Assembly: GCA_020086605.1 (NCBI GenBank)
Contig: JACBWW010000007.1
Location: 20,467,752 to 20,531,751, forward strand
Length of the DNA stretch: 64,000 nt
Direction: 5' to 3'
Source of the DNA: Lanius collurio
Lineage: Eukaryota; Chordata; Aves; Passeriformes; Laniidae
The translations under genes and the position numbers were made by a program. Positions 17,343 to 54,412 of the stretch are shown here, piece by piece. The notes below the pieces were generated by a model. The model was not told where the DNA came from. It ran no database searches and saw nothing but the letters and a program-made list of their open reading frames with translations. How positions within the stretch are numbered: the stretch's first letter is position 1; every line of letters starts with the position of its first letter.

Positions 17343-17880
17343 ACTAGAATATTTCAGTTGGGAAGGAACTGTAGCAATCATTCAGTCCTAGGGCCTGACC
17401 AATTCAGGGCTGACCAACAGTTTAAACATGCTCTTAAGGACATTGTCCAAATCCTTCTTTAACATTGACAGGTTTGGAACATTGACCATCTCTCTAGGAA
17501 GCCGGTTTCAGGGTTTATCCACTCTCTGGGTAGAAAAATGGTTCCTAGCATCCAGTCTAAACCTCCTCTGACACAGGTTTGAACCACTCCCATGAACTGA
17601 ATCCAGGGTCAGGGGGCTCAAGTTCTACTGTTATTATTAAAGACTGAGGGGGAAAAAAATGAAATCTGCATTGAATGCCTCTACTTTTTCTCCGTTCCTA
17701 ATTGTTATATGACCATCTCTAACAAGTATTGCTCCAATGTTTTCTGTAGCCTCCCTCTTGATATTAACAAACTCAAAAAAGCCCTTCTTGCTATCCCAGC
17801 CAACACTGGCCATGGTGCTGTTACTTCTTGAGAGGCCTGACCTGACTTCCAAAGATGATTGCAGGAGGATTGACATTAAA
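17343..17880 (-). mobile_element. CR1 LINE, two blocks on the minus strand
   Basis: Bases 17343-17610 match the minus strand of the CR1 3' end (AGTTGGGAAGGAACTGTAGC, ACATTGTCCAAATCCTTC, CCTCTGACACAGGTTTGAAC). Immediately next to it, 17640-17880 translates on the minus strand to the CR1 ORF2 block just before the reverse transcriptase, with KKGFFEFVNIKREATENIG, a DGHITIRN segment, then EKVEAFNADF. The reverse-transcriptase domain that should lie between the two blocks is missing. Either this copy lost about a kilobase internally or two CR1 copies landed side by side. Confidence 0.85.
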
Positions 17881-23297: not shown

Positions 23298-23957
23298 TGT
23301 ATTGATTTGGTCAAATTTAGAAATACATCCTCTGACAGAAGGCAGGTTACAAACCACTCCTCCCCCACCAGGTTCAAGAAACAAAAGAAATTTTCCTAAA
23401 AGAAAAGTGAAAGTGATAAAAACTATTTATTTAACAAACACGCAGGAAAAGGATAATAATGCTTAATAATAAAATCTCTCACTGTGAAGAGAAAAATCTG
23501 GGAAAATGTTAGAGTCCTTCCATAGGTCTCTCTCTCTTTCTCCTCCTTGGAGCTGGGACACAGGCCCACCTCCAGGGGCCAGGGCCTTGGTGGATAGTGG
23601 TGGAGAGTCCTCCCAATGTATTCTGATGTTGAAACAGTGCAGCTAAGAAAAGGGAAAAAACTGAAAGTCTCAGGAAAACAAGATTCATCTTTCCTTCTCT
23701 CTCTGGAGAAAAGGAGCCAAGGGGAAAAAAAAAGGTTTAAAAGAAAAGCAGCAGCTTCCTCCGCCCTCCCTCAGCAGAACGCAGAGCAGTCTATGTTATC
23801 TCTGTGTATGTCCTTGAAAAACACTGCTTTGAGAATACACACTTCTTTTTTTCTCTCTCTCCCCTCTCAGACACAGTTTAAAGGCACAGAAAGGCACAAA
23901 TTAATTCCTGGGCATAGCAACTATAGGGGATACACATCATAACATCATCCCAAGACA
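23298..23957 (-). mobile_element. Solo LTR, sibling of the one at 30037
   Basis: This 660-bp segment aligns along its length with 30037-30703 in the same orientation. Both share the starts TGTA..TTGGTCAAATTTAG and TGTA..TTGACCAAATTTAG, the ACAAACAC.CAGGAAAAGGATAATAATGCT block and the terminal CCAAGACA/CTAAGACA. It is flanked by AAAGA (23293-23297) and AAAGG (23958-23962), a 5-bp duplication with one mismatch. Orientation is set to minus because TGTCTTGGGATGATGTTATG on that strand resembles the start of the 2580 LTR, and because an AATAAA in GTTAAATAA is kept on that strand in both copies. The 108-codon open frame at 23616-23942 is chance. Confidence 0.85.
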
Positions 23958-30036: not shown

Positions 30037-30703
30037 TGTACCAGTTTGACCAAATTTAGAAATATATACTCTGAGAAAAGGCAGATTATAAATCACCCCT
30101 CCCCCCTACCAGGTTTGGGAAAAAAGTGATTCTCCCTGAAGGAAAGTGAAGGAGATAAAACTTTTATTTAACAAACACACAGGAAAAGGATAATAATGCT
30201 AAATGATGAAACCTTTTGCTGTAGAGAGGAAAACATGGCAAAATGTTATAGTCCTCCCTTTGTCCCTCTTCTTCTCAGAGCTGGAATGGGATGGACCCCC
30301 CCTTCTTTGGGGGCCTGGCCTTGGATGGAGAGCAGCCCTGATGTGTTCTGAAGCTGAAGACAACCCAGCAGAGGGAAAAGGAAAATCTGAAGTCCCAAGA
30401 AAATAAAATCTAACTCTCTGTCTCTCTCTCCAGAGGATAAAAAAGATGGGAAAAAAAACCTGGCTGAACAAACAAGCCAAGTGCTTCCATGCTCCTCTCC
30501 CCACCGCCGCAGAAAAGTAATGCTGAGAGAGTGAGAGCCTGTGTTATTTCTGTCTGTCCTTGAAAACACAAAACTGTTTTGAAAAGTCTCACTCAGTTTC
30601 AGTTGTTTTTTTTTCCTCTCTCTCAGGCTCAGGTTAAAAGCATAAGAAGGCATAAAACTAATTTCTGGGCATAGAGCTGTGATAATCACGTCACCCTAAG
30701 ACA
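30037..30703 (-). mobile_element. Solo LTR, sibling of the one at 23298
   Basis: This 667-bp LTR has TG...CA ends (TGTACCAG at the left, CTAAGACA at the right) and is flanked by a 5-bp duplication with one mismatch (AACAG/ACCAG). It is collinear with 23298-23957. Its minus-strand start TGTCTTAGGGTGACG resembles the start of the plus-strand LTR at 2580. The different duplications show that the two siblings are separate insertions, not the two ends of one provirus. Overlapping open frames here (up to 147 codons on the minus strand) carry no known domain and arise from the LTR's mixed composition. Confidence 0.87.
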
Positions 30704-30930: not shown

Positions 30931-30936
30931 CCTGAC
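30931..30936. repeat. 6-bp target duplication, left copy
   Basis: CCTGAC immediately before the 5' LTR, identical to 33501-33506. A 6-bp duplication fits alpha/betaretrovirus-like (ERVK) integration. Confidence 0.88.
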
Positions 30937-31226
30937 TGTGCAGGTACCTCTCTTCTGAAGTCCCAGAGGGAGGGACCCTGCAGGGTACAGGTCTGTCCCT
31001 GTCCCTGTCCCCATGTCACATGTGCCCCATACCTGTTCCTGGTTGGTTGCGTTGGGTGCCCGGACCAGGAAGAGAGCAGGGTCCCATGACTGGGGCCTGC
31101 CTGGGAACTCCAGCCATGCGGCTGGAGGAATAAATCATCTCTGAACATCTAAAGAAATATCGCTGCATCTTTCCTTCCAAGTTCATCGCTATCTTCTACT
31201 TGTTGTAAGGATTCCCCATTACAACA
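30937..31226 (+). repeat. 5' LTR (290 bp)
   Basis: Starts TGTGCAGG and ends ATTACAACA. It aligns with 33207-33500 throughout, including the AATAAATCAT block, TTCCTTCCAAGTTCATCGCT and AAGGATTCCCCATTACAAC. The U3 part holds repeated CCCTGT units. AATAAA at 31129-31134 is the likely poly(A) signal. No clear TATA box is seen upstream of it. Confidence 0.93.
31129..31134 (+). terminator. LTR poly(A) signal (5' LTR copy)
   Basis: AATAAA, conserved at the same place in the 3' LTR (33403-33408). Confidence 0.6.
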
Positions 31227-31228
31227 AA

Positions 31229-31246
31229 TGGAGGAGAATGTGGGCA
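31229..31246 (+). promoter_or_regulatory. Candidate tRNA primer-binding site, degenerate
   Basis: TGG starts two bases after the LTR end, and the 18 bases contain AATGTGGG at the place where the lysine-tRNA (Lys1,2) site of betaretroviruses has AACGTGGG. About 11 of 18 positions agree with that site by eye. Position right after the LTR supports it. The match itself is weak. Confidence 0.5.
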
Positions 31247-31297
31247 TTTGATCCCTGAAAATGATTTCTAAAGGTCCGGAGCACACCGATGTGAATT

Positions 31298-31303
31298 GTG
31301 AGT
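31298..31303 (+). promoter_or_regulatory. Candidate splice donor in the leader
   Basis: GTGAGT lies between the primer site and the gag start, where retroviruses keep their main splice donor. It is inside a 14-codon leader frame that opens with ATG at 31261, so a spliced message would carry that AUG, as known for alpharetroviruses. The exon side (ATT) is a poor match. Confidence 0.35.
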
Positions 31304-31350
31304 AATTGAACTTTCTTATTGTCTTGGTTTTGGCTGTACTTTCTGACCAG

Positions 31351-31911
31351 ATGGAGAAATCAGAGGAGTTGTGGCTATCTGAGCCACAGAAAAAAATGTA
31401 CTTGGAACTGAAAGAAATTCTAGCAAAACAAAATGCAAAACTGGACCCAGGACATTTAGAACACTTCTTTAACTGGCTTTTCAAAAATTTCTTTTATGTC
31501 ACTTGAGACTTAATTTTTGATGTTGGTTTTCCTGTGACTAGAGGGGACAATTTTTGGGAAGAAATTGATGAGTTGATAATGATCCAGTCAAGAAGTGGAA
31601 TGGTACTAGAATTGATCCTAGCATCTTTTGCAATTGAAGACGCTCTCATAAAGCATATGCTTGGTCCCAGTAACACCGAGGTGCCTGCGGCTGAGGTGCC
31701 TGTGGTGGAGGCTCCCAGCCCCCCTAAAAGCACAAGCCATAGAGCAGACCCCACCCCTGTATCGGAGGGCACTCCTGAGCGACAGCGGGTGAGAGAGCGA
31801 TGACGAAGATGCTGGATGTGAGAGTGCATTCCCAGGGGTCTCCGAGGTATTCTTACAGTGAATAAAGAAGGACAGCTGGTAGAAATAGCTGCTGAAAAAT
31901 GCAAAAAGTGA
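31351..31911 (+). pseudogene. gag: Decayed gag, matrix-like N-terminal part
   Basis: An ATG at 31351 opens a frame whose first 50 residues include KMYLELKEILAKQNAKLD, then HLEHFFNWLFKNF. After an in-frame TGA (31504-31506) the same frame continues through a FDVGFP segment and NFWEEIDELI, then turns proline-rich. The helix pattern, the W-rich spacing (FFNWLF ... FWEEI) and the proline-rich stretch after about 110 residues fit the matrix region of betaretrovirus-like Gag proteins. I see no N-terminal myristoylation glycine. Further stops lie at 31801, 31816 and 31909, and between 31796 and 31860 an acidic SDDEDAGCESAFPG stretch is read in the next frame, so at least one indel has occurred. Nothing matching capsid or zinc-knuckle nucleocapsid is present. 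Family assignment is by pattern only. Confidence 0.65.
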
Positions 31912-32295
31912 GCCACGAGAGCAGAGGCGCGAGCAACAAGGGCAGCAGTGAGGGCAGCAGCGAGGGCAGCAGCGAGGGCAGAGGTGGCAGAGGCGCGTCC
32001 TGGCAATGGCTGCCCCATGCCGTGTGGCGAGCAACGGTCCGAGCCTGAGCCTCGCACTGAGAAAGGCAGCGGTGATAGCGGCAGTCGCTATGGCGACCGC
32101 GGTGAGCCATGCAGAGCAGAGCCGGAGGGGTGTGGGGGCAGCGAGAAGGGAACCACACAGCCGACAGCAGCAGTGGCGTCATTGCCAGAAGTACAAAGCC
32201 ACGCACAAGTGAACGCCTCACAGGGCGTGGCCATGCAGCTGCATGAAAGCCCAGAAAGCACAGAGCACCTGCACGGAGCTCCAGAGGGGAAGTGA
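31912..32295 (+). pseudogene. GC-rich Ala/Arg/Glu/Gly-rich linker frame
   Basis: In the gag frame, the sequence after the TGA at 31909 stays open for 127 codons and ends at a TGA (32293-32295). It begins with a 12-base tandem repeat (about three GAGGGCAGCAGC-type units, 31941-31980) that encodes alanine and arginine, then becomes rich in Gly, Glu, Pro and Ser. There is no known domain. It could be the low-complexity N-terminal part of the captured Y-box gene, whose relatives also have GC-rich alanine/glycine/proline-rich N-termini, or the rearranged end of Gag. It overlaps the cold-shock frame by about 46 bases in a -1 relation. Confidence 0.5.
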
Positions 32296-32960
32296 GCACA
32301 GCGCCAAACGGCGGTGCAGAGGGGGCCGAAGGCAGAGCAGCCGGCAGGGTCAGTGTGCAGCAGCACCGCCAGACCGGACCCGCACGGCCCCACACACGAT
32401 CCCGAGGAGTCAAGACCCCACCACAGGAATGCGCTGGCGGCCCTGGCGGTCCCGGCTGCGGCAGCTCCAATGCGAGAGCGAGAAAACACGAAAGTGAAAG
32501 CAAGAACAAAGGAACTCGGAAAAATGAAAAGGTTATTGCAGCTAGGGTTTTTGGAACTGTAAAATGGTATAATGTAAAGAAAAATTACGGTTTCGTATCG
32601 AGAATTGATACAGGAGAAAGTATTTTTGTCCATAAATCTGCTATTGTAAAAAATAACCCCAAAAGTGATGTTCCAAGCTTAGAAGAAGGAGAAAGAGTAG
32701 AATTTAAAATTGTACAAGGAAGGAAGGGCCCACAGGCCACATATGTTACAGGCCCTGGGGGTGCTCCTGTCAAAGGAGGTAGATATGCTAGACAATATCC
32801 CCATAATCCCTATCCTTTCCCCTATCCCACCTTCCCCTTTTATTCCATGCCCCTCTATCCCCCATATATGCCCAGGTCAAATTTTCCTTTCTGGTTCCCC
32901 TCACAAAACCAGGCTTTTCCATTTGCCATGAACCCCTTTGCAATGCCAATGGGGGGATAA
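32247..32960 (+). CDS. Captured Y-box-type cold-shock-domain frame
   Basis: A frame open from 32247 to the TAA at 32958-32960 (237 codons plus stop). The cold-shock domain spans about 32529-32764 and includes KVIAARVFGTVKWYNV, the RNP1-type YGFV strand, the RNP2-type IFVH strand, NNPKSD, EEGERVEF and the closing YVTGPGG, all in Y-box order and spacing. These domains bind single-stranded RNA or DNA. The aromatic residues W, Y and F of the binding face and the FVH motif are kept, and the glycine before YGF seen in Y-box proteins is replaced by asparagine. The N-terminal ~90 codons are Gly/Ala/Arg-rich with a GGPGGPG stretch. After the domain comes a Pro/Tyr/Phe-rich tail instead of alternating basic/acidic islands. 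There is no intron, as expected for a captured spliced mRNA. There is no AUG upstream of the domain in this frame, so expression would need frameshifting, splicing or a non-AUG start. Whether it is still expressed is unknown. Confidence 0.85.
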   Translation, partial: KPRKHRAPARSSRGEVSTAPNGGAEGAEGRAAGRVSVQQHRQTGPARPHTRSRGVKTPPQECAGGPGGPGCGSSNARARKHESESKNKGTRKNEKVIAARVFGTVKWYNVKKNYGFVSRIDTGESIFVHKSAIVKNNPKSDVPSLEEGERVEFKIVQGRKGPQATYVTGPGGAPVKGGRYARQYPHNPYPFPYPTFPFYSMPLYPPYMPRSNFPFWFPSQNQAFPFAMNPFAMPMGG

Positions 32961-33189
32961 AAAGGAGGGAGGGAAGAATTAACTGTCATTTCTAAGATTC
33001 CAACAGGCACAGAAAGGAAAAAAACCCTCTCCTGACTCAGTTTCCATCTGAAGCATGCTCAAGTCCTGTCTCCCTTCTGATGCTCCAAAGAAAATCTGTT
33101 TGGACATTTGGGGACTCAAGATAGTGGCTTCTTTTCTTTTAAAATTGTTTTGCTATGTTTATCCAACTGTTCCCAATGTTCTTTTATTT
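32961..33189 (+). other. 3' untranslated part of the retroelement
   Basis: Non-coding sequence between the cold-shock stop codon and the purine tract. It begins with a purine-rich GGAGGGAGGGAAG run. No env or other retroviral frame is visible. Confidence 0.6.
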
Positions 33190-33206
33190 AAAAAGAAAGA
33201 GTAAAT
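33190..33206 (+). promoter_or_regulatory. Polypurine tract before the 3' LTR
   Basis: AAAAAGAAAGAGTAAAT directly precedes the TGTGGAGG start of the 3' LTR, the position where plus-strand DNA synthesis starts in retroviruses. It is broken by a T four bases from the end of the purine run. Confidence 0.65.
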
Positions 33207-33500
33207 TGTGGAGGTGCCTCTCCCATGAAGTCCCAGGGGGAGGGACCCTGCAGGGTGCAGGTCTGTCCCTGTCCCTGCTCCCATGTCACGTGTGCCCCAT
33301 ACCTGTTCCTGATGGGTTGGTTAGGGTGGCCAGGGCCTGGGAAGAGAGCAGGGTCCCATGACTGGAGAGTCTGCCTGGGAACTCCAGCCATGTGGATGGA
33401 GGAATAAATCATCCCTGAACAACGAAACAAATATCGCTTCATCTTTCCTTCCAAGTTCATCGCTGTCTTATAGTTCTTGTAAGGATTCCCCATTACAACG
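33207..33500 (+). repeat. 3' LTR (294 bp)
   Basis: Starts TGTGGAGG and ends ATTACAACG, against ACA in the 5' copy, so the terminal CA has mutated. AATAAA lies at 33403-33408. It aligns with the 5' LTR with about 10% mismatches and a few short indels. Confidence 0.93.
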
Positions 33501-33506
33501 CCTGAC
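33501..33506. repeat. 6-bp target duplication, right copy
   Basis: CCTGAC, identical to 30931-30936. Confidence 0.88.
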
Positions 33507-49536: not shown

Positions 49537-49622
49537 GTTTTTTGGGGTTTTTTTGGGTTTGTGTTTTTTTTTTTTTTTTTTTGGTTTTTGTTTTTTTTTT
49601 TTTTTGTGTGTGTGTGGGGGGG
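49537..49622. repeat. T-rich / GT / G low-complexity tract
   Basis: Long T runs broken by GGGG and GGG, then (GT)5 and a run of eight G. Low complexity and prone to slippage. Confidence 0.85.
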
Positions 49623-54066: not shown

Positions 54067-54412
54067 CACAGAAACACAGAATAACAGAATATGCTGAGTT
54101 TGAAGGTACCCAGAAGAATCCTTGAGTCCTTCTCCTGGCCCTGCACATTCCCAAGAGTCACACCATGTTCCTGAGAGCATTGTCCAAACACTTCCTGAAC
54201 TCTGTCAGGCTTGGAGCTGTGACTACTTCCCTGGGGAGCCTGTTCCAGTGCCCAGCCACCCTCAGGGTCAAGAACCTTTTCCTGATATCCAACCTAAATC
54301 TCTCCTGACACAGCTTCAGACCATTCCCTCAGGTCCTGTCACTGAACACCACAGAGAAGAGATGAGTGCCTGCCCCTCCTCTTCCCCTCATGAGGAAGTT
54401 GTAGGCTGCGAT
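54067..54412 (-). mobile_element. CR1 LINE 3' end nested in the LTR
   Basis: CACAGAAACACAGAATAACA at the left edge is the complement of the CR1 tail. Then come CTTGAGTCCTTCTCCTGGCC, TGTCCAAACACTTCCTGAAC, TCCCTGGGGAGCCTGTTCC, TCCTGATATCCAACCTAAAT and CTCCTGACACAGCTTCAGACC in CR1 order. GAGAT occurs at both edges (54062-54066 and 54413-54417), so it may be a short target duplication. The copy inserted after the LTR was in place. Confidence 0.9.

Follow-up and report, generated by a model that had tools for sequence, protein, structure and literature searches.

A decayed LTR retroelement with a Y-box cold-shock domain in Lanius collurio and a candidate Gag-YBX family in corvids

A Y-box cold-shock domain inside an LTR retroelement

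Analysis of a 64,000-nucleotide stretch of the Lanius collurio genome (contig JACBWW010000007.1, forward strand; the whole stretch is called the window below) confirmed that positions 30937-33500 hold an LTR retroelement, or endogenous retrovirus, with paired long terminal repeats (LTRs), target repeats and a gag-derived protein. The remains of a retroviral matrix domain (MA) are followed in its interior by a Y-box type cold-shock domain (CSD), and this copy is very probably a decayed member of a non-autonomous alpha/beta-type (ERVK-like) Gag-YBX family. Relatives found in corvids suggest, from their protein sequences, a spreading family and not an isolated accident, and what is new is a Gag-YBX fusion that seems to have become a germline family. 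The statement taken as a whole, a non-autonomous family with an RNA-binding role of the CSD as the leading option, is held with fair confidence.

The element is 2564 bp long with an interior of 1980 bp (Table 1). An earlier note on this DNA had described two direct LTRs of 290 and 294 bp, identical flanking CCTGAC repeats, a purine tract, a broken matrix-like gag start and an intron-free cold-shock-domain frame, and all of these were recovered. The LTRs form a real pair, identical at 259 of 289 aligned sites (Kimura two-parameter distance 0.112; 5 gap events); both start with TGT, the 5' LTR closing with ACA and the 3' LTR with ACG. The flanking repeats are exact, no target repeat longer than 6 bp was matched at the element flanks, and the purine tract is present though unremarkable. 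The MA frame is broken by two TGA stops and matches corvid proteins, while the nearest solved structures to the CSD in PDB are the YBX1 and YBX2 CSDs (E about 7e-31). Slower avian rates would raise an age drawn from LTR divergence several-fold. At the crow rate of 0.0158 substitutions per site per million years, given in PMC7341801, the divergence corresponds to about 3.5 million years.

When the 24 distinct interior frames were compared with Pfam the CSD alone reached the cut-off, therefore no protease, pol or env, as carried by an autonomous endogenous retrovirus, was recognised in the interior. No pol frame was found in the element, and a helper provirus was likewise not found. The frame of the window copy is interrupted between the MA, linker and CSD parts, and since no ATG lies ahead of the CSD, the CSD frame is probably the second half of a formerly longer protein.

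Corvid proteins with the same fusion

The earlier note had proposed a search for further copies. Protein-database searches brought to light corvid proteins with the same MA-CSD fusion, and no further LTR or interior copy was found by BLAST within the window. A protein-database search with the window CSD frame returned four proteins, three of them named Corvus moneduloides, and a profile built on these four matched 19 proteins at E <=1e-10 among 7986 scored candidates. Of the 19 matches, 11 were Corvus moneduloides clusters with 37 member sequences (24 in P0006), a number that may count redundant gene models. The others were two ENA fragments, four Y-box proteins of the ordinary kind and two proteins in which Pfam marks additional domains. 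A query with the MA of P0013 detected, besides P0013 itself, P0020 of Aphelocoma coerulescens (Florida scrub jay); both species belong to the Corvidae. The same Y-box CSD is present in the 11 Corvus clusters and the one Aphelocoma protein, and the same MA is fused in four.

P0006 (440 residues) and P0020 (437 residues) are complete single-frame fusions of MA, basic linker, CSD and aromatic/proline tail. P0010 has the same MA start and stops just past the CSD, P0013 joins MA to CSD with its first residues absent and its tail apparently frame-shifted, and P0007 begins within MA. The proteins P0001, P0002, P0003, P0005, P0008, P0009 and P0011 and the fragments P0004 and P0012 carry no MA, which may reflect gene-model or copy differences. 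The two fragments are family members on short ENA contigs (705 and 505 bases, respectively) and their tails are apparently frame-shifted. All corvid members are known from protein sequences, and the protein searches, which need shared words and score a limited number of candidates, do not imply absence from other birds. In IMG/VR, two single-protein scans gave no relative. An alignment scan there matched 18 loci, 32-55% identical in the CSD region, that are presumably cold-shock proteins of phages or bacteria; among GTDB genomes a single bacterial CSD was matched.

Two origins had been offered in the earlier note, a fossil of a single capture and an ERVK-like, non-autonomous family whose cargo binds nucleic acids. 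The corvid fusions uphold the second, and a single-copy capture was dropped because the same fusion occurs in several corvid protein entries. A processed Y-box pseudogene lying between two LTRs by chance would account for the intron-free Y-box sequence, but it is already contradicted by the crow and jay proteins with the same one-frame MA-CSD fusion and by the element-specific tail, and is hardly credible.

Parts of the window element were aligned one by one to the corvid proteins, with 300 shuffles each. P0020 was the best partner of MA part one (35/51 identical), MA part two (25/70) and the Pro/Arg stretch (13/19), the CSD was identical to P0020 at 48/79 and to P0003 at 51/79 residues, and the tail was closest to P0006 (35/58); no shuffle out of 300 reached any of these scores. 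The Pro/Arg stretch did not match P0006 or P0010 (133/300 and 257/300 shuffles). The linker read in the MA frame matched none of the four MA-CSD proteins (55 to 143 of 300 shuffles); read in the CSD frame it matched P0010 (1/300) and marginally P0006 (18/300), while P0020 and P0013 gave no match beyond shuffles. The window MA is closer to P0020 and P0013, while the window CSD groups on the P0006 side (support 96/94) on a long branch. This mismatch can be a difference in rate, since only three lineages are compared, and does not imply recombination.

The matrix domain and the retroviral class

The MA was not recognised by sequence alone, Pfam included. The fold modelled for MA alone gave retroviral matrix proteins as its top seven structural matches, four from Rous sarcoma virus (RSV) and three from mouse mammary tumour virus (MMTV), with sequence identities of 12-16% in those alignments. 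The element MA thus shares the fold of the RSV and MMTV matrix proteins but little of their sequence, and on the modelled fold it is matrix-like and gag-derived. A 6-bp target repeat is usual in alpha/beta-type (ERVK-like) retroviruses, and the CCTGAC repeat has this length. The element fits an alpha/beta-like (ERVK-like) class, as judged from the repeat and the MA fold.

Origin of the cold-shock domain

The window CSD is 55-58% identical to the vertebrate YBX1, YBX2 and YBX3 CSDs, the P0020 CSD 71-73%, and the two are 62% identical to each other. Residues W107, F116, F127 and H129, which we take to be the RNA contacts known from YB-1 structures, are kept in the 5 aligned CSD rows, as in a CSD of the Y-box family. 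Since the CSD frame is open and intron-free, it follows that the source was a spliced host mRNA.

The phylogenetic tree of the domain, which the earlier note had called for, was constructed with host rows other than bird YBX1 and YBX2 and with the partial P0011 and P0012 left out. It separated 13 element CSDs from 7 host CSDs by one branch (98/99; present in 98% of 200 bootstrap trees) and named no donor. The placement of the window row is unsure because of its long branch (0.41). The tree is as one capture of the CSD for the whole family would give. If different retroviruses had each captured a Y-box gene independently, this would agree with the strong divergence of the CSDs between lineages, seen in the 62% identity of window and P0020, and with host rows that point to no single donor. 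This explanation is very improbable, as MA, Pro/Arg stretch and tail are common around the CSD and the element CSDs stand together on one side of the branch.

P0017 departs from the vertebrate rows at 14 sites where these are all alike; at these sites the residue is vertebrate in 5 cases and P0017-like in 6 for P0020, and in 3 and 4, respectively, for the window CSD. Judged from the CSD, by sites or by tree, the donor is undecided among the Y-box genes. The 16 residues directly after the CSD were compared with YBX1 and YBX2 in an anchored test with 5000 shuffles. P0003 kept 7/16 residues of YBX1 in register, a score reached by 0/5000 shuffles, and with YBX1 the flank score was reached by 1 (P0001), 4 (P0006) and 7 (P0002) of 5000. 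With YBX2 the numbers were 16 for P0001, 17 for P0006, 36 for P0002 and 406 for P0003, while for P0007 YBX2 was as good as YBX1 (20 vs 24 of 5000). Because YBX1 gave the best match in this flank, for four of the five proteins tested, it is the likely donor, with moderate confidence.

Y-box proteins have C-terminal basic/acidic repeats. Unanchored comparison of the tail with host Y-box C-termini gave nothing better than 232/500 shuffles, except P0003 with YBX1 (32/500), and beyond the first 16 residues no significant match to such repeats was found in the tail. Compared with host YBX1, YBX2 and YBX3, the element is alike in its CSD but has the N-terminal part exchanged for matrix and linker and a different tail in place of the C-terminal repeats.

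A possible role for the captured domain

The family gene would consist of a retroviral matrix, a basic linker, a Y-box CSD of host mRNA origin, with YBX1 as the most likely source, and a tail. A helper would be needed because no capsid, nucleocapsid or enzymes are recognisable in the element, and copies would move with the particles, reverse transcriptase and integrase of a helper retrovirus. The CSD would provide the RNA binding that nucleocapsid gives to ordinary Gag and would coat and protect the element RNA, while the matrix part would take this RNA to helper assembly sites and join helper Gag there. This role of the CSD, in which RNA is bound in nucleocapsid's place, protected and delivered to helper assembly, is put forward tentatively. 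PMC6040738 reports that YB-1 influences the production of murine leukaemia virus (MLV), MMTV and human immunodeficiency virus (HIV); retroviruses such as these are reported to depend on host YB-1, used in trans, for their RNA and particles. If the proposal is true, a natural family with a Y-box domain inside a Gag-like protein would reveal what part of YB-1 is useful to a retrovirus that encodes it itself. It would also mean that a transduced host gene, with no oncogenic action, can give rise to a durable family that multiplies in the germline.

The R/U5 part of the 5' LTR holds CATC, presumably the core motif of YB-1, at 31136, 31146, 31166 and 31184 (11/1000 shuffles), and three of these four are kept in the 3' LTR (33410-33461; 58/1000 shuffles). 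The cluster is a candidate Y-box binding region and a lead only, because the region was picked after inspection. A fuller version, in which a corvid lineage rebuilt Gag without capsid and nucleocapsid and with a host CSD, so that MA-CSD carries its own RNA to helper particles with the CATC cluster as binding site, is doubtful.

Against such a binding region, CATC is no more frequent than expected over the whole element (9 vs 8.9) and is rarer than expected in the interior (2 vs 5.4). MA and linker are disrupted in the window copy, several corvid entries are without MA, and the CSD and tail frame of the window could have survived by chance with a probability of 0.02 to 0.39, depending on the assumed indel rate (0.001 to 0.24 for the whole frame). 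These three points favour a passenger, a Y-box cDNA caught by chance in a defective provirus, as happens in acute transducing retroviruses, and multiplied by LTRs and helper, its protein being useless to the element. Such a passenger is unlikely, as the CSD and tail remain recognisable across lineages whose linkers barely align and the P0006 and P0020 fusions are open in one frame. This persistence, judged from alignments and open frames and not from dN/dS, fits selection during spread.

Other gag-derived restriction genes interfere with retroviruses, and the MA-CSD copies could likewise serve the bird as co-opted host genes, for instance in defence against related retroviruses. This agrees with the intact frames of two corvid genera, and MA could in principle mix with viral Gag, but the many near-identical members in one species (24 in P0006) resemble a spreading family, and co-option is improbable.

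Comparison with known systems

In acute transducing avian retroviruses a shortened gag is fused to a gene of the host. The family resembles them in its partial gag starting from MA, in the in-frame, intron-free host coding sequence, in that other viral genes were not found and in the helper that would be required. This intron-free fusion is in frame in P0006 and P0020 and interrupted in the window copy. The differences are a Y-box RNA-binding cargo in place of a growth gene, the many copies in host protein sets and a new tail that mostly replaces the host flank. In agreement with the earlier note, which knew of no such cargo, no retroelement with cold-shock or Y-box cargo was described among the papers listed in searches of open-licence literature, as far as titles and the starts of abstracts go, nor in passages of PMC11009239, PMC7757076, PMC5006616 and PMC8310711.

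Songbirds have non-autonomous ERVK-type LTR elements, among them the hooded-crow insertion near NDP, which according to PMC7341801 is 2.25 kb long, has LTRs of 296 bp and belongs to the ERVK subfamily corCorLTRK1b. It is of the same type as the window element and similar to it in LTR length (290/294 bp) and in total length; the window element has 2564 bp, and a P0006-type copy given the leader and 3' part of the window element would have about 2285 bp. For two primers placed in that insertion, the match to the window element did not exceed the best one among 60 shuffles. Identity of the two, compared by lengths and primers, is therefore not claimed, although the length agrees.

Other features of the element and the window

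Table 1. Positions of the element parts in the window
Feature	Position	Strand	Description
5' LTR	30937..31226	+	290 bp; AATAAA at 31129; four CATC 31136-31187
3' LTR	33207..33500	+	294 bp; AATAAA at 33403; three CATC
Target-site repeat CCTGAC	30931..30936 (left copy); 33501..33506 (right copy)		exact 6-bp match
Candidate primer-binding site	31229..31245	+	starts TGG, 2 bases past LTR; weak; no tRNA assigned
Purine tract AAAAAGAAAGAG	33190..33201	+	ahead of 3' LTR; unremarkable
MA-like frame, part one	31351..31503	+	ATG at 31351; stop TGA 31504-31506
MA-like frame, part two, and Pro/Arg stretch	31507..31803	+	stop TGA 31801-31803
Linker	31804..32510	+	GC-rich (62%); frame broken; switch into CSD frame falls within
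CSD and tail open frame	32247..32960	+	237 codons, stop-free; no ATG before CSD
Y-box type CSD	32553..32753	+	residues 103-169 of the frame; Pfam CSD E 1.6e-21
End of CSD region and aromatic/proline tail common to the family	32772..32957	+	based on match to P0006

A third AATAAA is located at 31861, within the interior. Scans of the 64-kb window for tRNA genes and Rfam families gave no matches. An old direct repeat (23306-23917 and 30045-30674) has an identity of about 70% across 659 alignment columns, its second copy stopping about 260 bp ahead of the element, and a further old pair (17414-17591 and 54151-54328) is 69% identical over 178 bp. The sole tandem array with a score of at least 80 in the window lies at 49548-49605 and consists of 2.1 copies of a T-rich 27-bp unit.
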